Shown here piece by piece: positions 21,826 to 46,995 of a DNA stretch of 52,133 nucleotides. The notes below the pieces were generated by a model. The model saw nothing but the letters and a program-made list of their open reading frames with translations, was not told where the DNA came from and searched no databases. The translations under genes and the position numbers were made by a program. The stretch is from Akkermansia muciniphila (GTDB taxonomy: Bacteria > Verrucomicrobiota > Verrucomicrobiia > Verrucomicrobiales > Akkermansiaceae): assembly GCA_945860285.1 (NCBI GenBank), contig CAMAQB010000012.1:1-52133 (forward strand), read 5' to 3'. The number at the start of each line of letters is the position of its first letter. Position 1 is the stretch's first letter.

Positions 21826-24669
21826 ATGCACACCCACACAGTTAGATCATTATTCCTCACCACCCTCGCGCTCCCAGCCATCGCCTGCGCCCAGCCTGCG
21901 GTCGCGCCCGACCCCGGCGGCATTCTGCGCAAACCCATCCCCGACAAATTGGTGGTGCTCACCTTCGATGATGCATGCGCCAGTGGTTATACCGTGGTGG
22001 CTCCAATCCTGAAACCTTTGGGATTCAATGCATCGTTTTATGTCTGCGATTTCGATTCGTTCAAAACGCGCAAGGACTGGTATCTGACCTATCGGCAGAT
22101 GATCGATCTGGATCGCAGAGGATTTGAAATCGGCAACCACACGGTGGGTCATGGCGGAGGTTTGGACAATTATCTGGCCATGGAAGATCAGTTGTTCGCG
22201 AATGGCGGCCCGAGAATGACGACCGTCTGCTGGCCACTCTACGGCGTGGTCTGGAACATCTGTCCGGATCTCGCCAAGCGCGGTTACACCTTCGGCCGGG
22301 GAGGACATGAACGTCCGTACAGACCAACGATCGACAGTCCTTTTGATGTGCCGTCGTTCACGATCACGGAAAGTCAGCCGATCGAGGCGTTCGTTAAAAA
22401 AGCGCAACAGGCCTGCCAGGGCCGGGTGGTCGTCTATTGTTTCCATGGTGTGCCGGACATGGAACACGGGGCCGTGGGAGTTGAGCCCGCGACCTTCAAG
22501 GTGATGATGCAGTATCTGAAGGACAACAACTACAAGTGCATCGCCATGCGCGACCTGGCCGAATACATTGATCCGGCAAAAGCCGCGAAACTGCCGCCGC
22601 CGCCCAACGAGGTAAAGGCAGAAGAGCCCTTCCTGACCAACAAAGACGACAAGCCGTGCGGAGTGGTTGTGAAGGCAGCCAAGAGCAATGTTGAGCCTGG
22701 GAAAAATGCCCTTGTCCGCAAGTCAAACGACATGTTGATCACCCATGCCCCAGCTGTGACGGCGATCAAGAGTGACAGTCCAAACGTGTTCACATGGAAC
22801 AAGGCGGAAGCCGGCAACTGGAGCGATGAAGCAAAATGGTCGAACAATTTGTCCAACAAGTCGGCACCGGTCATGGCGGGTCAACCGGACTATGTTCTCA
22901 ATTTCGACCAGCCGGGGAAATACAGTGTCACGCACGACCTTGATGCGGGATTCATGCTCAACCGGCTCAATTTGGGTATTGGCAATGGAAACGCACTGAC
23001 GCTGACCGGCAAAGGCATGAAGTTCACCGGAACAGCGCCTTGTATCAGACAAAGTTCAGCGTTTACAACTGACAAAATAGCAACGCCCTTGAACCTGGCG
23101 GCGGATGTCGCCGTGAATTTAATCGCCGGCGGTGGACGTGTGGAGCTCGATGGCCTGATCTCAGGTGCCGGCGGCCTGGTCTTGAATGGTGGCAGCGGCA
23201 ATGAAAACGGCGAACTCAACGGCGGGCCTAACCAGCATTTCAGCACCTTGTCCCTCAACTGTGCGTCCAACACCTACAGCGGTGGCACCATCATCAACGG
23301 CGGAACACTTCGCCTGGCCTCGAACAGCACGCTGGGAACCGGACCGGTAACTCTAAATGAAGGGGCTGGCCTTGCGCCGGGCCAGGGCAATGCCAGCAAT
23401 GGGTTGATCTTGAATGGTGGCACGATCGATGCCGGCAAACTCGATTGGAATGCCCCGATCACCTTGAATGGAAACACCCGCATCGCCGGTCATCAAGTGA
23501 ATTTCAACAATGCCAGCGGCGCAATGACCGGGCCCGGTGGTTTTACCGTGATTGGCACTTGGATTGCCTTTGCGAGGGGGAATGACAGCAAGCTGTGTCT
23601 CTGGGGAACCAACACCTATACAGGCCCGACCATCGTTCACCAGGGTGCGCTTTTTGTAAAGAAAGCCACGGCCCTTTACAATGCGGATCCAACTCAATGG
23701 ACCCCGACCAGAATCAGTGTCCACCCCGCTGCCACGTTGGTAATCAGCACAGGTGGCCCGGGCGAGTTCAGCGGTGAACAAATTTGCACGTTGCTCAGGA
23801 ATCTTACCGCAGCGGTCAACAACAACGGCTTGATGGAGCGCGCCACTTTGTGCCTGGATACCTCGAACGCCAAGAAGCCGGTCACGGTCCCGGCCAACAT
23901 TGCCGATTCGAAGGGACCCGGCGGCGGCGCGTTTCTCCTTAAAAAAATCGGGGCTGGAACGTTGCAGCTTTCAGGCAAGAATACTTATACAGGCCAGACC
24001 AAGCTTGAAAGCGGTGCGTTGAGCATTGCATCATTCAACAGCCATACCAAGGGCAAGAATGTGGCCAGCAGCAGCCTCGGCGCGCCGACGGATATTGAGA
24101 GCGGCGAGATCGTCATCGGGGAGGATGGGAAGGAAAGTGATTGCACCCTGATCTATACAGGACCGGGCGAAACCACCGACCGCGTGATCAATCTCGTGGG
24201 CAAGAAATCAGCCGTCACCTTTGATCAATCAGGCTCCGGCATGTTCAAGCTCACCAGCACATTTGTGATCTCCGGCTATGGCACCGACAAGACGATCGTG
24301 CTGATGGGTGACACTGCCGGCACAGGTGAGATCGCCGGAAACCTTTTCAATCCTCATGACCGGGCGGGCAAGGCAATCACTGCCGTCACCAAATCCGGCT
24401 CGGGCACCTGGGTGCTCTCCGGAACCAACACTTACAGCGGCGCGACAACCGTGAAGCAGGGCACCTTGTCGATTGCGAGCGCGAAAAGTCTCGGCGAGAA
24501 GACCGATGTTTATCTCTCGGAAGGAGCTACGCTGGAGCTGGGCTTCAAGGGTGAATTGAAGATCGGGAAACTCTATCTTGACGGTAAGGAGCAGCCCGCC
24601 GGCACATTCAGCGCGGAGAACGCTCCAAAGTATATCAAAGGCAAAGGGGTTTTGAAAAGTTCCTCATGA
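21826..24669 (+). CDS. Secreted polysaccharide deacetylase fused to autotransporter-associated beta-strand repeats
   Basis: 947 residues. After a signal peptide (about 1-22) comes a NodB-type deacetylase domain. LTFDDA puts the metal/catalytic Asp pair at 48-49, and HTVGH at 105-109 gives the two metal His. CFHGV near residue 207 gives the His of motif 5. From about 320 the protein is a right-handed beta-helix of Gly/Asn/Thr-rich 'autotransporter-associated beta strand' repeats, such as GAGTLQLSGKNTYTGQT near 709 and GSGTWVLSGTNTYSGAT near 857. No C-terminal autotransporter barrel or obvious sorting signal is present. It probably removes N- or O-acetyl groups from an external polysaccharide while held by the beta-helix. 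Confidence 0.8.
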   Translation: MHTHTVRSLFLTTLALPAIACAQPAVAPDPGGILRKPIPDKLVVLTFDDACASGYTVVAPILKPLGFNASFYVCDFDSFKTRKDWYLTYRQMIDLDRRGFEIGNHTVGHGGGLDNYLAMEDQLFANGGPRMTTVCWPLYGVVWNICPDLAKRGYTFGRGGHERPYRPTIDSPFDVPSFTITESQPIEAFVKKAQQACQGRVVVYCFHGVPDMEHGAVGVEPATFKVMMQYLKDNNYKCIAMRDLAEYIDPAKAAKLPPPPNEVKAEEPFLTNKDDKPCGVVVKAAKSNVEPGKNALVRKSNDMLITHAPAVTAIKSDSPNVFTWNKAEAGNWSDEAKWSNNLSNKSAPVMAGQPDYVLNFDQPGKYSVTHDLDAGFMLNRLNLGIGNGNALTLTGKGMKFTGTAPCIRQSSAFTTDKIATPLNLAADVAVNLIAGGGRVELDGLISGAGGLVLNGGSGNENGELNGGPNQHFSTLSLNCASNTYSGGTIINGGTLRLASNSTLGTGPVTLNEGAGLAPGQGNASNGLILNGGTIDAGKLDWNAPITLNGNTRIAGHQVNFNNASGAMTGPGGFTVIGTWIAFARGNDSKLCLWGTNTYTGPTIVHQGALFVKKATALYNADPTQWTPTRISVHPAATLVISTGGPGEFSGEQICTLLRNLTAAVNNNGLMERATLCLDTSNAKKPVTVPANIADSKGPGGGAFLLKKIGAGTLQLSGKNTYTGQTKLESGALSIASFNSHTKGKNVASSSLGAPTDIESGEIVIGEDGKESDCTLIYTGPGETTDRVINLVGKKSAVTFDQSGSGMFKLTSTFVISGYGTDKTIVLMGDTAGTGEIAGNLFNPHDRAGKAITAVTKSGSGTWVLSGTNTYSGATTVKQGTLSIASAKSLGEKTDVYLSEGATLELGFKGELKIGKLYLDGKEQPAGTFSAENAPKYIKGKGVLKSSS

Positions 24670-35108: not shown

Positions 35109-38100
35109 ATGAAAGTAATAAAACTCTCAGAATGGGCCGCCCAGGCACTCAATCAAAAAATTGATTCCGAGCTGAGGGCGAGCTTGGAACAAGTGGAAAA
35201 TTGGCATGCAAAAAATGTGCGGGTCCTTTACGGGCCTCATTTGTATTTCGCATTCCGTGTTCAAAACTCGCACTCGTACCATCAAATCGAATTGTTTCCG
35301 TATTTCGCCAAACCAACATCTTCATTGGAGCTTCTCGGCTACATCCGTTGCCAACTGATCCGAAGCGGCTTGCGATGCAATCCAACAATGGAAAAGTTGT
35401 TGGCAAAGGTGCCCTTGGATGAAACTATGCACCAGTGGATCGATTCTTTGGAAGCGGAAAAATGGCACAATTACCTTGAGGATCTTTCGGATCAAGGCAA
35501 ACTCGTTGAAGTGCCCTTGCCGCAACTCCGCCTGATGCTCTTGGAAAAACACGCGGAAATCATGCTTGCCCAGCCGGATACGGACAACTTCAAAAAAGCC
35601 ACACTCACAAAAATGCGTGACTTATTCCGCAGCTATCAATCGGGTTCGGCGGCACACATGGACACGTCGACATACGCGATCCTTGAAACTTCCTTTGACC
35701 GCTACAAAAATGTTGGCCAGGTGCAAGTGGACTATGCCAGCGAAAATTTCATCCGCTGCCTGCACACCCTTTTTCGGAATAAGGAGAACATCGGCAGCTA
35801 CATTGTGGATGACAACAATCAACCCCTGATGATTCAGGACCAGGAGCTGAAATGGAAACTCACCGAGCCCGACGGCAAGAACAATTCATTCACGCTGGGA
35901 CTTGTTTGCGAAAACGCTCCTCCAAGCATGAACATCGTTGCCGGAGTCGTGGGCCCGCAATGTTATGTTTTGACCACGAAAACAATCTACCCCATCGAAA
36001 AGTGGAATCTCGCCGCCGGAGCCATCATGTTTCCCATGGTGATACCCGCTGCGGCAATGACAACCAAAGTCGGCTATCAATTCCTGCACAAACTGGGCGT
36101 GGAAATACCAAGCCTGATTCAGGAAAAAATTGTCACCCTGATACCGAAAATTTACGTGAAGGCGAGGATCATCAAGCACAACCACCAGGTCTCCTCCATT
36201 TTCCGAATCAGTGCCTATGGCTCGCTGGCAAATAAAACCCCGCATTATGTATGGACGCAGAATGGCTGGCAGGAAACACGGGAAAAACACATCACACCAA
36301 GAAATCAAATCGCAACCATCGACGATGATGCTCTGAAAAAATCAGCCGCCTGGATGGCGCAACTGCCGCTCCGCACCAACATTTATGGCGGTACTAACCA
36401 TCATGAAATGCGGGTCAGCAAGTCATTTCCCGATCAATTCATCGAGTGGATGAAAAACAAACCTGTCTGTGTGGAATGCCAGTTGGATGCGGAACTGAAA
36501 CAACTCCTCGAAGGCCTGATCACAGGCGACATCTCATTGGAGATTCAGGAATCAACCAATGGCATTGATTGGTTTGACATTCACGTCAATGTCACTCTAT
36601 CCGACACCTCACTCAGCGAAAAGGAGGTGGAACTGCTTCTCAAGGCCAAGGGCAAATGGGTCATGCTGCCGGAAAAAGGATGGCGCAAGCTGGAATATTC
36701 CATCAATGAAGAAACGGCTAAAGAACTGGCCGACATCGGTCTGTCCGCACACGATTTTTCGGGAGAAAAACACCGCCTGCACGCGCTGCAACTTTCCTCC
36801 ATGGCGCAGCGCAAGTCCAAACTCCTGCCCGGAGAAGCCCACAAGCTCGTGACCCGCCGCATCGAGGACATCCAGACGCGCGTCAGTCCGGAACAACCGC
36901 CGTGTGTGAATGCGACATTGCGCCCCTACCAGATGGAAGGCTTCCACTTCCTCGCGTATCTCAGCAAAAATCAGTTCGGCGGCGTTCTCGCGGACGACAT
37001 GGGCCTGGGAAAAACCCTGCAAGCGCTTACATGGATCGCCTGGCTGCGCAGCACCCAGGACATGACGAAACCATCACTAGTCATCGCCCCGAAGTCGGTC
37101 CAGGAAAACTGGCACAGCGAAGCAAGGAAATTTTTCCCCGAACTGCGGGGCCTGGTCTGGAAGACGGGCGAAATCGCAACGGACCTGGAGACCGACATGT
37201 TTGATCTGCTCATCGTAAACTACGCACAGCTTCGCAACCAGAAAGAACTGCTCACCCGCAAGGAATGGGGCGCGGTCATTGTCGACGAAGCGCAAAACAT
37301 CAAAAACCCCACCTCGCTCAGCACCCAGGCGTGTTGTGACTTGCCGTCGGAATACCGCCTGGCCCTGACCGGAACGCCGATCGAAAACCGACTCATGGAT
37401 CTGTGGTCGATCTTTTCTTTTGCGATGCCCGGCGTGCTGGGAACAAGAGCTTCGTTCTCGAAAACCTTCGACAAAAAGGATGACCCGCTGGCCCGGCGCC
37501 GCCTGTCCGCCCGCACCCGGCCGTTCCTGCTCCGACGCACGAAAAATGAAGTGGCCAAGGAGCTTCCCGAGCGAATCGAAGAAGACCTCAGCATCACCAT
37601 GGAAGGCGTGCAGTTGAGACTCTATCAAGCGGAACTCAAACGCGCCAGGGCCCACCTGCTGAAGGCCAAGCTGCCCAGTCAACTTGACAAGATGCGCTTT
37701 CACATCCTCACCAGCCTGCTGCGTTTGCGCCAGATCTGCTGCCATACCGCACTGCTCGGCATAGAAGCAAACGATGCCCCGGCGCAGGTATCGAAAGCTC
37801 GGAAAAAAGCCAAAAAAATCGTCGACCTAGACAGCGGCGCGAGTGCGAAACTGGAAGCGTTGATGGATCTGTTGGAACCGATCATGGAAGAAGGCCAGAA
37901 GATTCTGGTGTTCTCGCAATTCGTCGACATGTTGGAAATCATCCGTCGCTCTGTTGATGAACGCGGTTGGAAAAATTTCACACTGACCGGCAAAACCGAA
38001 GATCGCGGCGATTTGGTGGATGACTTCCAATCCACTGAAGGCAGCGCCATTTTTCTCATCAGCCTGAAGGCGGGCGGCTCGGGCCTCAATCTCACCGCCG

Positions 38101-38357
38101 CAAGTTACGTGGTCATCTTCGACCCTTGGTGGAATCCCGCCGTGGAAGCCCAGGCGATCGACCGCACCCACCGCATCGGCCAGAAACGAACGGTCATCGC
38201 CTACCGCCTGGTGGTGCAAAACAGCATCGAACAAAAAATCCGCGATCTCCAAAAACAAAAGTCAAACCTGGCAAATGACATCCTGGGCGAAGAAAGTTTC
38301 GCCCGCTCCCTCACCCTCGACGATTTCAACTTCCTGCTCGGCAGCAACGACGACTGA
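35109..38357 (+). CDS. SNF2-family DEAD/DEAH-like ATPase (first of two)
   Basis: 1,082 residues. The C-terminal 480 residues are a full SNF2 motor: Walker A ADDMGLGKT at 628-636, motif II DEAQN at 726-730, SGTP-like TGTPIENR, LLRRTK, and the second RecA lobe with FSQFVDML, SLKAGGSGLNLT and DRTHRIGQ. The N-terminal 600 residues are an unrelated, mostly helical region of unknown fold with no SWIM finger visible. It likely moves on dsDNA, but its cargo is unknown. It is 24 bases upstream of a second SNF2 gene and divergent from the cytochrome gene. Confidence 0.85.
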   Translation: MKVIKLSEWAAQALNQKIDSELRASLEQVENWHAKNVRVLYGPHLYFAFRVQNSHSYHQIELFPYFAKPTSSLELLGYIRCQLIRSGLRCNPTMEKLLAKVPLDETMHQWIDSLEAEKWHNYLEDLSDQGKLVEVPLPQLRLMLLEKHAEIMLAQPDTDNFKKATLTKMRDLFRSYQSGSAAHMDTSTYAILETSFDRYKNVGQVQVDYASENFIRCLHTLFRNKENIGSYIVDDNNQPLMIQDQELKWKLTEPDGKNNSFTLGLVCENAPPSMNIVAGVVGPQCYVLTTKTIYPIEKWNLAAGAIMFPMVIPAAAMTTKVGYQFLHKLGVEIPSLIQEKIVTLIPKIYVKARIIKHNHQVSSIFRISAYGSLANKTPHYVWTQNGWQETREKHITPRNQIATIDDDALKKSAAWMAQLPLRTNIYGGTNHHEMRVSKSFPDQFIEWMKNKPVCVECQLDAELKQLLEGLITGDISLEIQESTNGIDWFDIHVNVTLSDTSLSEKEVELLLKAKGKWVMLPEKGWRKLEYSINEETAKELADIGLSAHDFSGEKHRLHALQLSSMAQRKSKLLPGEAHKLVTRRIEDIQTRVSPEQPPCVNATLRPYQMEGFHFLAYLSKNQFGGVLADDMGLGKTLQALTWIAWLRSTQDMTKPSLVIAPKSVQENWHSEARKFFPELRGLVWKTGEIATDLETDMFDLLIVNYAQLRNQKELLTRKEWGAVIVDEAQNIKNPTSLSTQACCDLPSEYRLALTGTPIENRLMDLWSIFSFAMPGVLGTRASFSKTFDKKDDPLARRRLSARTRPFLLRRTKNEVAKELPERIEEDLSITMEGVQLRLYQAELKRARAHLLKAKLPSQLDKMRFHILTSLLRLRQICCHTALLGIEANDAPAQVSKARKKAKKIVDLDSGASAKLEALMDLLEPIMEEGQKILVFSQFVDMLEIIRRSVDERGWKNFTLTGKTEDRGDLVDDFQSTEGSAIFLISLKAGGSGLNLTAASYVVIFDPWWNPAVEAQAIDRTHRIGQKRTVIAYRLVVQNSIEQKIRDLQKQKSNLANDILGEESFARSLTLDDFNFLLGSNDD

Positions 38358-38380: not shown

Positions 38381-41209
38381 TTGCACTATGGGGTCAACAG
38401 TGATGATGCGGAAAGTCCCGTCGATTTCACCCGCTCGGTGCTTGCCAATGAGGTCCGACTGATCGAACATCGCCGCATGGATCATGCTGGCGCGCTTCAA
38501 GAGTTCTTGCTGCTCGAAGCATGGCGGGATCGTTTCGACGACGACATCCTGATACTCGGAAAAAAACTGGCGCGCGAGAGGAAGATCGGCGAGTTGCACG
38601 CGGAAGAGATTGATGAGACGAACTTCACCATCACCGCCGCATGCCTTACGGCACCACAAGCCCGCATGGAGATCAACTACTGGCTCAACAAGGGCGAATG
38701 GGACATGGACTGCTCGTGCTCCTGCCATGTTGCGCATTTTTGCGAACACACTGCGGCGGCGATGTTTGTCCTTGCGATGAACAACAACCTGCGACGCCTG
38801 CTCGAGGGCAACGACCCTGCAACGCGCAGTGCACCAGCCCTGCCCGCGGCCAGCAGTCTGCTGCCGAGTGACGATCCGGAGGTCCCTGCATTGCTCAGCG
38901 CCCCCAGCTTCCGCCTCGATATCTGCCGCGAAACAGTGAAGGACCGCAACGCATCGATCATCTGCCAATATCTCGGTGAAAAAGAACCCGCCGAATGGGT
39001 TTTTGCGCGTGCGGTGGCGAAATACGGGGATTACGAACTGCCCTTGTTTTCTTCTCACCCGGAACAACAGCGGTTGATGAAGGATCGCAACGGGGCCCCC
39101 GTGATGGTGCGTCGCGACCGTGCTGCGGAAACGATCGCCGCACTGCAACTGCGCGACATCGGTCTCGGGGCCTTCGATGCATCACCGATGTTGCGGTTTT
39201 TGCATGGAGCCAACAAAAAGGAACTGCCTGCCGACAGCCCCTGGCTGCCGCCACTGCCGCCTTCGGCCTCCGCACCGTATTGGCACCAGTTCCGGGCGAT
39301 ACATGTGCCGCGTTTGCTGCAACAGGGATGGGCGGTGAGCTTCACCGACAACGTGGGCCACCTCGTCCATGACACCGCGCCGGACGACTGGATGACCCAG
39401 CTTGAGGAGGATCCGGACCAACGCGGCTGGTTCAGTCTGTCCGTGGGATTCCAGGTTGACGGCAAACGCTATGATCTGATGCCGATCCTCGCCAATCTGC
39501 TGGAGGATGACTACCTGGAGGAAACACTCGACCGACCGGACAACGGGTTTGTGCTCGCTCCCCTGCCCGACGGCGCGGCGCTGAAAATTCCGTTAGGCCG
39601 GGTGAGGGCGATCCTCAAGCACCTGTCCGCGTTGATCGATCCGCAACATCCATCGGCGGTGAGACTGCACGCGCTCGATGCCGCAGCGCTGGCGGCCGTT
39701 GAAGAACTGGGACTCGACACCCCTCCGTCGCTGGTGGAATTGCGCGACAAGATCAACAACTTTGGTGGCATCGAGGAAATCCCCTCGCCGCCTGGTTTGC
39801 GCGCGACGATGCGCGATTACCAGATCACCGGATTCCGCTGGATGCAGTTTCTCGCCGCCCACGGACTGCACGGTGTTCTCGCCGATGACATGGGGCTCGG
39901 AAAAACCATGCAGACCCTGGCGCATCTTCTAACGGAAAAAGAAAGCGGACGCAGCCGGGGACTGCCCAGCTTGGTTGTGGCGCCCACTTCCGTCGTGCCG
40001 AACTGGCGGGCCGAGGCGTTGAAGTTCGCCCCCTCGCTGCGCATCCTCGTTCTTACAGGTTCGGATCGCGCCCGGTATTTCCGCAGCATCCCGCACGCCG
40101 ATGTGGTGCTCACCTCTTTCGCCCTGCTGCAGCGCGACATCGCAAAACTCGCCAAGCAGCCCTTTCATCTGGCGATTCTCGATGAGGCCCAGTACATCAA
40201 AAACCCCCGCGCGCTGGTCGCCCAGGCCGCCTGCAAGCTGCAAGCCCGCCATCGACTCTGCCTGTCCGGCACTCCAGTGGAAAACCACCTCGGCGAGCTG
40301 TGGAGCCTGATGCGTTTTCTCATGCCGGGTTTTCTCGGCAGCGAAAAATCCTTCAACTCCCGCTTCCGCAAGGCCATCGAAAAACAGGGCGATACCGCGC
40401 GTTTCGACGCACTCAAACGCCGCGTGGCACCGCTGATCCTGCGTCGCACCAAGGACGAAGTCGCCAAGGAGCTGCCGCCGAAAACGACGCTGGTGCATTT
40501 GATCGAACTGCACACCCCGCAAAAGGACGTCTATGAAACCATCCGCGCGACCATGGACAAACGGGTACGCGAAGCCATCGCCGCCCGCGGCATCGAACAG
40601 TCGCAGATCCTTTTTCTCGACGCCCTGCTCAAGTTGCGCCAGCTCTGCTGCCATCCGCGCCTGCTGCCCGATGAGTTTTCCAACAGGATCTCCGTTTCGG
40701 CCAAACTCGATTTTCTAACAGAACTTCTCGCGACCCTGCTGGAGGAAGGACGGAGGATATTGTTGTTCTCGCAATTCACCAGCATGCTGGCGATCATCGA
40801 ACAACATTTGCGGCAGCAGAAAATCCCCTACCTCATCCTGACCGGCGCCAGCAAGGATCGGGGCGAGTTGGTCGAGCAGTTTCAAACCGGAAAAGTCCCG
40901 CTGTTTTTGATCTCCCTCAAGGCCGGCGGCACCGGGTTGAATCTCACCGCCGCCGACACCGTGATCCACTACGATCCGTGGTGGAACCCCGCCGCCGAGG
41001 CCCAGGCCACCGACCGCGCGTATCGCATCGGCCAGGACAAACCGGTGTTCGTGCACAAACTACTCTGCGAAAACACCGTCGAACAGCGCATCCACCTGCT
41101 CCAGCAGGAAAAAGCCCAACTCGCGAACACCCTGCTCAGTCAAGCCGGCGGCAGCGCCCGCCTCGACCACGCCACCCTAACGCAATTGCTGGCACCGCTG
41201 GAGAAATGA
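38381..41209 (+). CDS. SNF2-family ATPase with SWIM zinc finger (second of two)
   Basis: About 942 residues; the start is uncertain (TTG at 38381, GTG at 38438 or ATG at 38477; no clear ribosome site). A SWIM zinc finger is at about 113-123 (CSCHVAHFCEH, pattern CxCx5CxH). The region from about 125 to 470 is an ancillary domain of the bacterial SNF2 associated type. The motor has Walker A ADDMGLGKT at 501-509, DEAQ at 601-604, SGTPVEN, LRRTK, FSQFTSML, SLKAGGTGLNLT and DRAYRIGQ. It lies 23 bases after the first SNF2 gene. Members are poorly characterised; some are found in defence islands. Confidence 0.85.
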   Translation: MHYGVNSDDAESPVDFTRSVLANEVRLIEHRRMDHAGALQEFLLLEAWRDRFDDDILILGKKLARERKIGELHAEEIDETNFTITAACLTAPQARMEINYWLNKGEWDMDCSCSCHVAHFCEHTAAAMFVLAMNNNLRRLLEGNDPATRSAPALPAASSLLPSDDPEVPALLSAPSFRLDICRETVKDRNASIICQYLGEKEPAEWVFARAVAKYGDYELPLFSSHPEQQRLMKDRNGAPVMVRRDRAAETIAALQLRDIGLGAFDASPMLRFLHGANKKELPADSPWLPPLPPSASAPYWHQFRAIHVPRLLQQGWAVSFTDNVGHLVHDTAPDDWMTQLEEDPDQRGWFSLSVGFQVDGKRYDLMPILANLLEDDYLEETLDRPDNGFVLAPLPDGAALKIPLGRVRAILKHLSALIDPQHPSAVRLHALDAAALAAVEELGLDTPPSLVELRDKINNFGGIEEIPSPPGLRATMRDYQITGFRWMQFLAAHGLHGVLADDMGLGKTMQTLAHLLTEKESGRSRGLPSLVVAPTSVVPNWRAEALKFAPSLRILVLTGSDRARYFRSIPHADVVLTSFALLQRDIAKLAKQPFHLAILDEAQYIKNPRALVAQAACKLQARHRLCLSGTPVENHLGELWSLMRFLMPGFLGSEKSFNSRFRKAIEKQGDTARFDALKRRVAPLILRRTKDEVAKELPPKTTLVHLIELHTPQKDVYETIRATMDKRVREAIAARGIEQSQILFLDALLKLRQLCCHPRLLPDEFSNRISVSAKLDFLTELLATLLEEGRRILLFSQFTSMLAIIEQHLRQQKIPYLILTGASKDRGELVEQFQTGKVPLFLISLKAGGTGLNLTAADTVIHYDPWWNPAAEAQATDRAYRIGQDKPVFVHKLLCENTVEQRIHLLQQEKAQLANTLLSQAGGSARLDHATLTQLLAPLEK

Positions 41210-41336: not shown

Positions 41337-42545
41337 CTATTTTTCCTCAGCTGCCTTCGCAGTCGGTTCGGCTGGCTTTTTGGCTTCGCCGATCTGTGCG
41401 GGAGTTGCGGGAGTTGCGGGAGTTGGGGCGGCGGTGACGGGTTTGCCATCCCAGTTTTTGCCCATCGGCGGGATACCGCCTCTGGCGATGTAGAAATAGG
41501 GATCGAACGCTTTTTTGGCGGACTCGATGTAGGCAAGGGCTTCGGCGATGGTGTAGTAGTTGCCGTAATTGGAAATCGCGACGCGGCTGGGACGCTCGAC
41601 ATCGGTGTAATAGCCATATTTATCGATGCGGCCCTTGATGCTCGGAATCGCTTTTTCGATGTACTCGCGGATCTTTGTCTCGTCCGCATAGTTGTCGGCC
41701 AGTTGATCGAAGGGACCGTCGTAGTAATCGTTGCGCAGGACGCTGATCTTCCGGATCGTCGTCAGGACTTTGCGGTCGCCATTCTTTTTGTCAACCCAGT
41801 AAATGAAACCGGAGCGCTCGCCGACGATGGCATCTTCGCTGATGGGTTTGAAATTTTCCGCCATGCCGACTTCTTCGTTGAGCACCCAAATGAAGTAATT
41901 GTTTTCGGTATTGAAGAGGAGGAAAAACTGATTGCCGCTTTCGTCGAAGGTGCGTTGCACGAAGACTTCGTTTTTGGGCAGGGTGAATTTTTTCGGCGGC
42001 GTTTGCGGCAGTTTGTTGAGGTTGAAAATGACGGTTTTTTTATTGTAACTCACCGACCATTTGAATTCGTCGTCGCCAACGCGCTTGACGATGAGTCCGT
42101 CGCCCTCGGTGAAATATTTGGCGTGCGAGATTTCCTTTTCATTGGGGCCGGAGGGGAATTCCTCAAACTCCGCGTATCCAAAACTTAGGACTCCACGCTC
42201 GCGGCGACCGCTGGGCAGGCGTATGTTGCCATAGATTTCACGACCACTTATTTCCATTTTCCAATAGTAATAATTTTCGGTGGGATAGACGATGACTTCG
42301 TCCGGCAGGCGGGAGAAAACTTCCCAGAAAAAGGCATCGGGTTCGCTGAGGATTTTATCGAGCGAGCGGTCATGCCAGGCTTCGACCAAATGTTGGGAGA
42401 GAAGCAATTTGGGCTTTTCCTCACCGACTACGCTGGAGGTTTTCGCTTCCTCTTGTTGTTTTTCCACTGCGGCAGGTTTGTTTTCCGCGGCAAGGAATGG
42501 AGAGAGGGTGAGAAGGATCGCGATGGTCGGAATAGGTGGCTTCAT
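41337..42545 (-). CDS. Secreted protein of unknown function, charged N-terminus, Pro/Ala/Thr tail
   Basis: 402 residues. Signal peptide about 1-20, then a Glu/Lys/Gln-rich stretch, then a 300-residue mixed alpha/beta domain with many aromatic residues that I do not recognise. The C-terminus ends in a PATPATPAQ tail, encoded by a three-fold 9-bp repeat around 41400-41428, and a Lys/Glu-rich end. It lies downstream of the repeat-protein gene on the same strand but past that gene's terminator, so it is probably expressed separately. The ATG at 42545 was chosen for the signal peptide. Confidence 0.6.
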   Translation of the reverse strand: MKPPIPTIAILLTLSPFLAAENKPAAVEKQQEEAKTSSVVGEEKPKLLLSQHLVEAWHDRSLDKILSEPDAFFWEVFSRLPDEVIVYPTENYYYWKMEISGREIYGNIRLPSGRRERGVLSFGYAEFEEFPSGPNEKEISHAKYFTEGDGLIVKRVGDDEFKWSVSYNKKTVIFNLNKLPQTPPKKFTLPKNEVFVQRTFDESGNQFFLLFNTENNYFIWVLNEEVGMAENFKPISEDAIVGERSGFIYWVDKKNGDRKVLTTIRKISVLRNDYYDGPFDQLADNYADETKIREYIEKAIPSIKGRIDKYGYYTDVERPSRVAISNYGNYYTIAEALAYIESAKKAFDPYFYIARGGIPPMGKNWDGKPVTAAPTPATPATPAQIGEAKKPAEPTAKAAEEK

Positions 42546-42575
42546 GATGTGGAGTGTGGATGGACGGGGCTTGGC

Positions 42576-42624
42576 AAAAAGAAATAAAGCCGCCGCCTCG
42601 GAAAAAATGGCCGAAGGCGGCGGC
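42576..42624 (-). terminator. Rho-independent terminator of the octapeptide-repeat gene
   Basis: On the minus strand GCCGCCGCCT pairs with AGGCGGCGGC across a 16-base loop and is followed by TTTATTTCTTTTT. It begins 18 bases after the repeat gene's stop and lies before the next gene. Confidence 0.8.
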
Positions 42625-42642: not shown

Positions 42643-45600
42643 CTATTGATCGGTTTGATCGCCGGGCACGACAACAGCGCGGTAGAATGCGCGTGGTGTG
42701 CCACGCTTGACGGGTTGTTTGTATTCGGTGCTGTCGGCATTGGCAGCGCCGGTTACGGTCGTAAGCAGGGTCCATGGTCCGTTCAGGTCGGGCGCGCAGT
42801 AGATGCGGTAGCGCACGCCGGGAGCGGATTTGAAGCGGATGCAAATCTCACCATCGACGATCTTGACTTCAGCCACGGCGAAACGGGAGCCAGGGTCGCC
42901 TGGATTGGTCCGCGCGTCGTGCTCTTCGCCATTGCTCTGGCCATCACCATCTCCATCCAACGCGGGGTCTGTGATTCCCGTGATACGCTCCCAGTCGTCG
43001 TCGAGTCCGTTGTTGTTGCCGTCATTTCCTACCCGTGAACGCAGGACGGAATGGACGGCGGATTTTGCGGGCTCGTGATGAACGGAACTGGTAGGCTCGT
43101 GAACAACCGAACGCTCTGGCAAATGGAGCTGGGATACCGTGACGTTGTGCATCTGTGATTTCAACGCGGTGTGCAGGTTGCTCTTGTCCGCACTGTGCGT
43201 TGAAGAGAAGACCGTGCTGTGGACGGTGGACTTCGCGGGATCATGCTGCTGGGAACGAGCGGTGTCGTGCACACCGGAATCGGAAGCGCTGTGAACAAGC
43301 GACTTCAGCGGATCATGGGCAACGGAGTGCGCGGCGGTATGCACGGTGGAAACCGCAGGATCATGTCCGGTGGACGATACGGCATCGTGCTGACCGGAGC
43401 TCAGGGTGTCGTGAAGAACCGACCGCTGGGGATCGTGCTGCACGGACTTGTCCGGATGATGCACAGCGGACCATGCGGGGTCGTGCTGCTGGGATAGCAG
43501 GATGGCATGGGTGTCCGAGCGCAATGGATCGTGCTCCACCGACTGGGACGGAACATGGATCATGGACAAGCCGGGGTCGTGCTGGACGGAGAGCGCCGTG
43601 ACGTGTTGTTGGGAATCCACGGGCGCATGGAGCACCGACTGACCGGCGGTATGACCGGCGGAGTGCTCAGGGCGATGGAGTTTGGAACACACGGGGTCAT
43701 GAAGGACCGACTCCGCAGTCAGGTGAATCCGTGAGTGATACACATCGTGAATGTTTGACTCCAGCGCGTTGTGCTGGACCGAGAGGTCGAGCTTATGGCA
43801 GGTGGAGCAGGCCGGATCATGCAGGGCGGAAGTCGCCGTATTGTGTTGCGAACTGAGTGCCACATCATGGCAATGGGAACGCAGCACCGCATGGGTGTTG
43901 GATTGGGCGACATCATGAGCTTGCGAGAGGGCAGGCTGGTGGTTGATGGCGGAATGCACCGGATTATGCTGGGTGCTCAGCACCGGATCATGCTGCCTCG
44001 AGCACAATGGCGAATGGAATTTTGAAACCAATTCATCGTGGAAGCTCGATTCGACAGGCTGGTGGATTTTCGAACTCGATGGTGTGTGGATGGCGCTTTC
44101 CTCGGGCGTATGGTGTTGCGACCAGTGGGGATCGTGCAGCAGGGATGCGCAATCCTGGTGCAGGCGCGAGAGGTTGATCGCATGGATGCGGGAAATGGCG
44201 GGGTCGTGCTGCTGTGAGGTGGCCGTATTGTGTTCCATCGACCAGAACGGATCGTGTGCGTGGGATTTGATCGGGTCATGCTGGTTGGAAACGGTGGGCT
44301 GATGGACCATCGATCTGGCGGGATCATGCTGGGCCGACGTTGCCGGATCATGTTTGTCCGACAGCACCGGTGCGTGCACGGCAGAGCGAATCGGATCATG
44401 CTGCAGGGAAATGTCGGGCTTATGCATGTCTGAAACAGCCGGGTCATGCTGCTGGGATTTCTCCACTTGATGCTGGTTGGAGTCTGCCGGGGCGTGAGCC
44501 ACCGAGATCACCGGATCGTGCTGCACAGAGAGTGCCGTGGTGTGGATGTTCGACCTGGCGGGATCATGCTGAACAGATTGCGCAGTTTGATGGGTGCTCG
44601 ACCACAAAATATCGTGGCCTTGGGACTTTACCGGATTGTGCTGATTGGACAGGGTCACAGCATGTTGGCCGGACACGGCGGCATCGTGCGACACCGATTG
44701 CCCCGTCTGGTGTTGCGCGGATTGATTGACCGTGTGCAGTCTGGTGCGCAGGACGTCGTGCATCAACGAGCGTTCGACATTGTGCTGACCCCGCGAGGTG
44801 GTGGGGTTGTGCCCTAAGACAGAGAGTGCTGGCCAGTGGCCTTGCTGGGACTGTGAAGCAAGGTGCTGCTTGGAGCGCACGGCATCGTGCAGCGCGGACT
44901 GGGCAGTTTGGTGATTGAGCATGGAGAGCTCCGGCCGGTGCTGGACAGACTGCAGCGTATTGTGTTGCGCGGACATCAATGGCGTGTGGGCCAGCGACAG
45001 CAGCGGTTGGTGCACTTTGGATTTTTCCGGTAGATGCACCACCGATAAAGTTGGATCATGCTGCGCAGAGAGGGTGACCACGTGCTGCACGGACCTGTCT
45101 GGCATGTGCTGTGCGGAAACATCCGGCGAATGCTGCGTCGAGGTACCTGCCACATGCATGGCGGAAACCGCGGGAGCGTGGATGTCCGACTTCGCAGGTT
45201 CGTGTTGCTGGGAACTTGCCGTCGTGTGGATATTCGACCGGGCCGGATCATGCTGCGAGCTGCTGGCAGCCGTGTGCATGCCGGACCAGTGGGGATCGTG
45301 GCCGTGGGAAAGCACGGGATCATGCATGTTCGATTTCTCGGCATTGTGCAACATGGAGATATCCGTCTGATGGGTGTTCGACCACTCGGTGGAGTGGACG
45401 ATGCTGCGGAAGGTGTCGTGCGTCACGGAGAAGAACGGCTGATGCACTTGCGATATGGCGGCATCGTGCTGCTGGCTGTTCGTCGGCAAATGTTGCTGGG
45501 AAATGGCGGGACGATGCACTTTGGAGCGCAGCGGCTCATGCTGGGCACTGAGGGTGGCACTGTGAACCACGGACAACGTCGCGGCGTGCTGATTGCTCAA

Positions 45601-46995
45601 AACACTATCGTGCCCTCCAGAACGAATCACATCGTGGATGACCGAACCCGTCGGATCATGCTGACCGGAAGCCGTAGCCTCGTGAATCACAGATACACCA
45701 GGATCGTGAAGCACCGACGAACTCGTCGAGTGAGTGGCGGAAATTGAGGGGTGATGGACACCGGAACGGATCGGATCATGGTTCGCAGATGTCGCTGTAT
45801 CATGCAACTGGGATGCCAGAGGTGTATGAATGTGCGAAATCAGGGGATCGTGTGCCGCTGACAAACTTGCGACGTGGACCCGACTCAAATCGCTGTTGTG
45901 GGTGTTGGAAGCCCCCGGATCATGCTGGCTGCTTTGGGCTGGCTGATGAGCGCCAGACAATACCGGATCGTGTCCAATGTTGCTCAGAGAAGGCTGGTGC
46001 ATATTCGAGCGCAGCGGCGAATGCAGGATAGATTCCTCGGGCTTGTGCTGGCCGGAAACGGTTGCCTGGTGCACGTTGGAAACGGCCGGATCATGCTGGC
46101 CGCTGAGTGCGGTGTCGTGCTGCTTGGAAGCAAACGGGCTGTGCAGAACGGAAACAGCAGCGTCGTGTTGGGCCGACTTCACCGGATGATGAACCAACGA
46201 GTCTTCCGGTTTGTGCTGGGCGGAAACCGCCGTATCGTGCATGCCGGACCAATGCGGGTCGTGCAGGGTGGAGACCAGCGCATCGTGGTTTTGCGAAGCC
46301 AGCGGCTGATGAACACCGGACTGCGTGGGGTCATGCGTGCCGGACTGCGAGGGTTCGTGCTGCTGGGACTGGACCGGAGTGTGCACGGCGGATTCTTCGG
46401 GTTTGTGCTGAACGCTCAGAGTGGCCGTGTGAACACGGGAAATGGCGGGGTCGTGCTGCTGCGCGGAAATGTCCGCGTCATGCTGTTGGGAGGCCGTGGT
46501 GTCGTGCATTCCCGACCAATGCGGATCGTGGATGACCGAGGTGAGGGATTGGTGGAACTGGGATCGTGCGGGATCGTGCGCGTTGGAATTTTCCGGAGCA
46601 TGCTGGCCCGACTGCGTGGCATCGTGCTGCGACGACTGCGTGGTGCTGTGCATCGAAGACTTCAGCGGGTCATGCTGCTGGGAGATTGTCGGCTGGTGAA
46701 TGGCCGAACTTGTCGGATCATGCTGCGCGGAAAGACCCGCATCGTGTTGGTCCGAGGCGACAGGATCGTGAATGTCCGACTTTGCCTGGTCGTGATTGGC
46801 CGAACTTGCGGCACTATGCACCTGGCTTTTGGCCGGGTCATGCTGCGAGGAGACAGCGGCATTGTGCTGAACGGAATTCTCAGGCTTGTGGAGTGCGGAA
46901 CGGACGGCGCTATGGACCGGGTCTTGGGCGCTTGCGGCGGTGAACGCGAACAACGGGAATAATAGAAGCGTTAGGTTGGAGTTTCTGTTTTTCAT
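42643..46995 (-). CDS. Giant secreted octapeptide-repeat protein with a His in every unit
   Basis: 1,450 residues from the ATG at 46995, with a signal peptide ending near FTAASAQ (residue 24). The frame is open further upstream to 47193, but that part is not signal-like. Residues 28-1320 are 161 head-to-tail octapeptides of the form H-x-x-x-x-S-x-x. By my manual count His is invariant (161 of 161), Ser at position 6 is missing once (Thr), and Asp follows His in about 65 copies. Pro is common at position 3 and Gln common at position 8. Seven units carry one extra residue. The C-terminal 130 residues hold an Asp/Asn/Gly-rich calcium-type loop (DGDGDGQSNGEEHDARTNPGD) shortened here to DGDGDGQ..TNPGDPGS, then a beta-sandwich-like domain ending in RAFYRAVV, as in other verrucomicrobial surface proteins. 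Function unknown. Confidence 0.85.
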   Translation of the reverse strand: MKNRNSNLTLLLFPLFAFTAASAQDPVHSAVRSALHKPENSVQHNAAVSSQHDPAKSQVHSAASSANHDQAKSDIHDPVASDQHDAGLSAQHDPTSSAIHQPTISQQHDPLKSSMHSTTQSSQHDATQSGQHAPENSNAHDPARSQFHQSLTSVIHDPHWSGMHDTTASQQHDADISAQQHDPAISRVHTATLSVQHKPEESAVHTPVQSQQHEPSQSGTHDPTQSGVHQPLASQNHDALVSTLHDPHWSGMHDTAVSAQHKPEDSLVHHPVKSAQHDAAVSVLHSPFASKQHDTALSGQHDPAVSNVHQATVSGQHKPEESILHSPLRSNMHQPSLSNIGHDPVLSGAHQPAQSSQHDPGASNTHNSDLSRVHVASLSAAHDPLISHIHTPLASQLHDTATSANHDPIRSGVHHPSISATHSTSSSVLHDPGVSVIHEATASGQHDPTGSVIHDVIRSGGHDSVLSNQHAATLSVVHSATLSAQHEPLRSKVHRPAISQQHLPTNSQQHDAAISQVHQPFFSVTHDTFRSIVHSTEWSNTHQTDISMLHNAEKSNMHDPVLSHGHDPHWSGMHTAASSSQHDPARSNIHTTASSQQHEPAKSDIHAPAVSAMHVAGTSTQHSPDVSAQHMPDRSVQHVVTLSAQHDPTLSVVHLPEKSKVHQPLLSLAHTPLMSAQHNTLQSVQHRPELSMLNHQTAQSALHDAVRSKQHLASQSQQGHWPALSVLGHNPTTSRGQHNVERSLMHDVLRTRLHTVNQSAQHQTGQSVSHDAAVSGQHAVTLSNQHNPVKSQGHDILWSSTHQTAQSVQHDPARSNIHTTALSVQHDPVISVAHAPADSNQHQVEKSQQHDPAVSDMHKPDISLQHDPIRSAVHAPVLSDKHDPATSAQHDPARSMVHQPTVSNQHDPIKSHAHDPFWSMEHNTATSQQHDPAISRIHAINLSRLHQDCASLLHDPHWSQHHTPEESAIHTPSSSKIHQPVESSFHDELVSKFHSPLCSRQHDPVLSTQHNPVHSAINHQPALSQAHDVAQSNTHAVLRSHCHDVALSSQHNTATSALHDPACSTCHKLDLSVQHNALESNIHDVYHSRIHLTAESVLHDPVCSKLHRPEHSAGHTAGQSVLHAPVDSQQHVTALSVQHDPGLSMIHVPSQSVEHDPLRSDTHAILLSQQHDPAWSAVHHPDKSVQHDPQRSVLHDTLSSGQHDAVSSTGHDPAVSTVHTAAHSVAHDPLKSLVHSASDSGVHDTARSQQHDPAKSTVHSTVFSSTHSADKSNLHTALKSQMHNVTVSQLHLPERSVVHEPTSSVHHEPAKSAVHSVLRSRVGNDGNNNGLDDDWERITGITDPALDGDGDGQSNGEEHDARTNPGDPGSRFAVAEVKIVDGEICIRFKSAPGVRYRIYCAPDLNGPWTLLTTVTGAANADSTEYKQPVKRGTPRAFYRAVVVPGDQTDQ
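43036..46914 (-). repeat. 161 tandem octapeptide-coding (24-bp) units
   Basis: The unit is 24 bp in phase with the gene. Copies are strongly diverged at DNA level while His and Ser codons persist. Some larger blocks recur nearly unchanged: HDPHWSGMH appears three times and HDPARSNIHTTA twice, and KPEE/KPED units three times. That points to past segmental duplication within the array. On the other strand the same DNA is open in long frames as a by-product of the period. Confidence 0.9.

Follow-up and report, generated by a model that had tools for sequence, protein, structure and literature searches.

The octad-array gene and its protein

The window, the whole stretch of 52,133 nucleotides that was analysed, is one entire contig of a 3.7-Mb genome that is 98% complete. 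The octad-array gene is located on the minus strand (42643-46995), with its repeat array internal to the contig. It encodes a protein of 1450 residues, beginning MKNRNSNLTLLLFPLFAFTAASAQ, which has an open frame, a signal-peptide-like start and a shared C-terminal module. The predicted signal peptide (MKNRNSNLTLLLFPLFAFTAASA, residues 1-23, 46927-46995), as read from the sequence, is followed by an array of 161 octads of the form H-x4-S-x2 (residues 28-1322, 43030-46914), corresponding to about 32 copies of a 40-residue super-repeat of five octads (see below). The rest of the protein contains a TSP3/EF-hand-like calcium-loop segment (NDGNNNGLDDDWE...DGDGDGQSNGEE, residues 1323-1373, 42877-43029) and a six-stranded Ig/FnIII-like β domain (residues 1374-1442, 42670-42876). 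A probable intrinsic terminator, consisting of a GC-rich hairpin and then a T-rich tail (42575-42624), lies between this gene and the partner gene (41337-42545), which encodes a predicted secreted protein of 402 residues. All of these features are on the minus strand.

In the window, the array gene has two SNF2 helicases and one PVC-type haem protein as neighbors. The SNF2-type helicases are adjacent to each other (35109-38357 and 38381-41209, with 1082 and 942 residues, respectively). Three large PVC-type haem/cytochrome proteins are found on this one contig (5234-7441, 11993-15058 and 47529-50459), two of them with DUF7133 above the cut-off. Further away, on the plus strand (21826-24669), there is a 947-residue protein with a polysaccharide deacetylase domain and PATR autotransporter-type repeats.

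The sequence-only reading had described 161 units with His in every copy and Ser in all but one, and these counts are confirmed (161/161 for His and 160/161 for Ser, with Thr in unit 90). The array is 1295 residues long, not 1,293. The unit has eight residues in 154 cases and nine (one extra) in the other seven, and the 154 regular units comprise 151 different sequences. Pro is present at position 3 in about half of the units. The array is hydrophilic (GRAVY -0.73) and contains 178 His residues in total. Met accounts for 1.3% of the array and is not conserved at any position of its octads, and the whole protein has 8 Cys residues. Repeated CxxCH motifs, a trait of multihaem cytochromes and haem-binding repeats, are not found in the array, where a single CSTCH occurs across the 161 octads.

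At the DNA level, a 7-unit pattern has 126 matches in the array and none in 100 shuffles. The best 96-base self-match in the array is 0.71, compared to 0.65-0.70 in arrays of shuffled units, and the DNA self-identity is at the level expected from the fixed His and Ser alone. Both residues use mixed codons (CAC 97 and CAT 64 for His, TCN 145 and AGY 15 for Ser), and the identity of the third position of the His codons at lag 1 is 0.55, where the codon counts predict about 0.52. Synonymous positions are near saturation, and two residues per octad have stayed fixed. As His and Ser stay in place over codons with randomised third positions, strong selection acts on the protein, in agreement with the role that had been suspected from the strict conservation of the two residues. 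The self-identity and the mixed codons also indicate that the array is not a product of recent slippage, as had been judged from the divergence of the copies.

The assignment of a calcium-type loop and a terminal β domain holds as well. Pfam PF18884 (TSP3_bac) is found in 16 of the 22 aligned members of the C-terminal domain, and the window member itself has no Pfam match. In the alignments (A3 and A4), the module has the DxDxDG calcium loops, a conserved Glu residue and GT(N/D)P, followed by the β domain. This TSP3_bac-containing module constitutes the last ~125 residues of the protein. It is present in 46 of 57 related genomes, and is also attached to subtilase-like and other proteins. AlphaFold predicts the C-terminus with confidence (116 residues with pLDDT of at least 90), as two short helices and six strands. 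The helices belong to the calcium-loop segment (pLDDT above 90) and the strands to the β domain (pLDDT about 95). Foldseek finds matches to FnIII/Ig folds and the SiiE adhesin, with weak E values, and by sequence the C-terminal profile weakly matches a biofilm-associated surface protein.

The octads themselves have low pLDDT values in the models, 35.9 for 16 octads (eight repeat rows in the alignment, in a chunk that contained a phase slip) and about 43-53 over the octads for 14 octads plus the C-terminus (five in-phase rows). Given that both alignments are shallow, these values are taken as neither proof of disorder nor support for a solenoid.

The 40-residue super-repeat

Between octads, the hydropathy of position 8 has a positive correlation at lags 5 and 10 (z 5.4 and 2.4, respectively) and a negative one at lags 1 and 4. 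A cyclic hidden-phase model with five phases has a log-likelihood of 222.5 for the window protein, compared to a maximum of 179.4 in eight shuffles. The models with 2-4 and 6-9 phases show no excess over the shuffles in this protein, and the ten-phase model exceeds them only marginally. Periods of two, three or four octads were rejected on this basis. The octads are therefore organized into a 40-residue super-repeat, as the five-phase fit is far above the shuffles.

The consensus of the super-repeat is HDPARSNV HQPALSVQ HDPLRSVL HDPLWSAQ HDTALSVQ, or approximately HDPAxSxV-HxPALSxQ-HDPLRSxL-HDPLWSxQ-HDxALSxQ with the variable positions marked. Two consecutive in-phase super-repeats (10 octads) are located at 44089-44328 on the minus strand, and this block is the best match of profile A5 (E 2.5e-34). 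The phase has no association with the codon choice for His, Ser, Asp or Pro (p 0.22-0.73), and it is associated with that for Gln (p 0.002). There are 8 phase slips in the window protein.

Relatives and the partner gene

The profile search of Verrucomicrobiota proposed in the sequence-only reading leads to two true relatives, G794 and G953. The first profile (A1, 64 residues), built without regard to phase, produced only antisense or tandem-repeat noise in 388 genomes of the phylum. Profile A5, which covers two in-phase super-repeats, found only noise besides its own gene in 387 genomes of the order, and one true relative, G794, in 285 genomes of the class. A search around the order of G794 (245 genomes) added G953. 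The two genomes belong to other families than the window genome, and both have the C-terminal module and an adjacent downstream homologue of the partner.

The G794 protein has 2782 residues and 301 octads, with His in 301/301 and Ser in 300/301, and ends in the same C-terminal module as the window protein. Its array (L378) is split by a non-repeat segment of about 200 residues (~1740-1944), possibly a globular domain. The G953 protein has 2662 residues, with about 273 octads and several inserts. As its octads were gathered by an H-x4-S/T rule, its own His and Ser counts are non-independent evidence. Short non-octad inserts interrupt this array (L394) at residues ~694-890, including the near-duplicate pair DDDLIFLVPEYNP / EEDIVFLTPEFNP.

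The super-repeat is found in all three proteins. The five-phase log-likelihood in G794 is 470.6, against a shuffled maximum of 192.2, and this array has 13 phase slips. The phase model trained on G794 only decodes the window protein with z 8.0, and 102 of the 161 phases match its own assignment, compared to about 32 expected. In the reverse direction, the window-protein model decodes G794 with z 4.8, and 232 of 301 phases agree. G953 is decoded by both models, with z 8.7 (G794) and z 5.8 (window protein). The hydrophobic fraction at position 8 in the five successive octads is 0.81/0.22/0.77/0.27/0.24, 0.83/0.45/0.93/0.19/0.46 and 0.81/0.38/0.92/0.37/0.31 in the three proteins. In their common pattern, octads 1 and 3 have hydrophobic residues at position 8, and octads 3 and 4 have a bulky residue at position 4. 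Asp at position 2 is present in about 40% of the octads overall and avoided in octad 2, where its fraction is about 0.1 in each of the three proteins. As judged from the sequences, the five-octad super-repeat is ancestral to the three array proteins, and the common pattern argues that the 40-residue unit has a structural or binding meaning.

The other matches were set aside. G064, G714, G039 and G1051 are antisense or simple tandem repeats, and G823, G886 and G968 have only short matches. G931, with a short uniform repeat, was not accepted either. It encodes a small protein (L395:1242-1625, plus strand) whose start is signal-like and whose H-x4-S-x2 octads, about ten and nearly identical to each other (GAHQAPKSGAHQAPKS), may represent a young or convergent array with the same octad spacing. 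Tblastn against plasmids and phages gave composition matches only (the CopB region, Rhodovastum and Lactococcus), and short tandem repeats dominate among the matches listed for the generic 7-unit DNA pattern in genome and viral collections.

The array is absent from the nine other genomes of the genus of the window genome (by DNA pattern and by profile), from the orthologous neighborhood in G003, and from G896, which is in the same genus as G794. This rare and patchy distribution is consistent with transfer or loss.

The partner protein is 54% identical to its G794 copy and 58% to its G953 copy, and it adjoins the array gene in all three array loci. It has no match in Pfam, NCBIfam or the PDB. 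Among the 285 genomes of the class, only two have the array and only two the partner, and these are the same pair, the window genome (G000) and G794. Given the former, the chance that the one other partner match coincides is 1/284. It is likely that the array and the partner form a two-gene unit. Two observations count against a strict link. Five genomes of another family (f3) have more distant partner homologues (about 45-49% identical, best match per genome), with no octad array beside the partner or elsewhere, so that the partner is not strictly tied to the array. Moreover, the probable terminator lies between the two genes in the window genome. Its hairpin has a predicted RNA folding energy of -27.7 kcal/mol (z -4.8), and does not appear in the output of the terminator scan, whose loop limit is 8. 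In G794 and G953, the array and partner genes have no comparable terminator-like hairpin between them.

Type II secretion genes are located downstream in G794, on the opposite strand, and a partner copy in G056 is near two T2SSE-type ATPase genes. This proximity may be a weak hint at the export route.

The five-phase H-x4-S-x2 octads, the TSP3/Ig-like C-terminus and the downstream partner are all present in the window genome, G794 and G953. The octad repeat has no match in Pfam, NCBIfam or, by profile search, the PDB, and a literature search found nothing relevant, in line with the earlier impression of an unrecognised protein type. The octad-array proteins are very likely a real, undescribed protein family. 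The original description of the array stands for the octads. It had missed the seven nine-residue units, as well as the super-repeat, the relatives and the downstream partner, and these last three are new here.

Possible functions and comparison with known systems

We favor a model in which a rare Verrucomicrobiota locus of two genes encodes the array protein as its repeat subunit. The chain would extend as a long and regular fibre or stalk, on the cell surface or beyond it, a location suggested by the signal peptide, which was read by eye. The His and Ser residues of each octad may hold the same local turn or ladder, and a packing stripe that recurs every 40 residues could arise from the bulky side chains, which occupy position 8 in octads 1 and 3 and position 4 in octads 3 and 4. 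The reach of the fibre would be set by the length of the array, and the partner may cap, anchor or assemble it. An extended extracellular fibre, with His and Ser as periodic structural positions and acting with the partner, has in our estimate about an even chance of being the correct reading. The hydrophilic composition and the lack of a confident AlphaFold fold for the octads count against it, as does the tolerance of phase slips, which a rigid 40-residue coil should resist. In a bolder version, which we consider unlikely, the 40-residue repeats would be a fibrous fold of a new kind, with a His/Ser ladder running through it continuously, and would assemble with a dedicated partner into a long extracellular filament with metal- or pH-set stability or ligand binding.

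The same low pLDDT values, together with the Pro residues at position 3 and the tolerated slips and inserts, would also suit a mostly disordered, extended spacer or tether, in which the octad is a short linear motif and its Ser, perhaps also its His, is a site of modification or partner docking. On the other hand, AlphaFold performs poorly on orphan repeats when the alignment is shallow, and a conserved super-repeat with fixed bulky residues, in an array where the DNA-level memory is erased, exceeds the need of a tether, although spaced docking motifs could suffice. A tether of this kind is possible but doubtful. The plain low-complexity spacer raised in the sequence-only reading is disfavored, as the families share a conserved super-repeat of 40 residues, in which individual octads have their own characteristic residues.

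The invariant His at fixed spacing in three proteins, and its abundance in the window array, could instead point to a multivalent ligand sponge, with transition metal or haem bound by the octad His, helped by Asp-2 or Ser, at 80-160 sites per molecule. Octapeptide repeats with regular His (plus Met) are present in CopB of Cupriavidus, where they bind copper. However, Ser aside, there is no second invariant metal ligand in the octads, as Asp-2 occurs in about 40% of the octads and is nearly absent in octad 2, and Met and Cys are scarce. At none of the three loci is a metal or haem transport gene seen beside the array, and the nearby PVC-type haem gene is retained in G003 without the array. We regard the sponge as improbable. 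An artefact, whether from recent tandem slippage, an incorrect frame or low-complexity similarity without meaning for the protein, has next to no probability and is already refuted by the relatives. Pattern scans of public collections do yield many short DNA tandem repeats resembling the octad, but the open frame starts with a signal peptide and ends in a known C-terminal module, the DNA self-identity is at chance with two Ser codon families in use, and the homologues share the architecture and the neighbor.

With these proteins, the exported repertoire of a little-studied phylum gains an undescribed tandem-repeat family and its conserved neighbor gene. In three proteins, and across more than 700 octads, two residues per octad are almost perfectly conserved as the rest drifts, which makes the array a clean natural experiment on the residues that hold such a repeat together. 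If the repeats fold, their architecture would be one for which sequence profiles find no PDB match. Metal binding would place them among the densest periodic His arrays, to our knowledge.

Several known systems share features with the array protein. The copper octapeptides of CopA/CopB also have eight residues and regular His, and the tblastn match to CopB is by composition, and most of it lies in a different frame, ahead of the annotated start of CopB. Their repeats are Met-rich (DHSKMQGM type) and few in copy number, whereas the octad array is Met-poor with near-invariant Ser, and the DHxxMxxM octads are not found in it. The linked cop genes (multicopper oxidase, CopC and CopD), present at the Cupriavidus locus, are absent among the neighbors of the array. 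In ice-nucleation proteins, octapeptides likewise build a long array with higher-order periodicity. These octads are of the Gly/Ala/Thr type and form 16-residue β-solenoid coils, with a 16/48-residue order. In comparison, the array protein has H-x4-S units with a 40-residue order, and no PDB profile match. The last ~125 residues belong with the TSP3_bac modules of Verrucomicrobiota, which are common accessory modules and do not define the octad protein. Adhesins of the Bap/SiiE type have repeats that are globular Ig/β domains, unlike the 8/40-residue His/Ser unit, which has no sequence match to them. They resemble the octad protein in being secreted, with a very long tandem array, a calcium loop and an Ig-like β domain.
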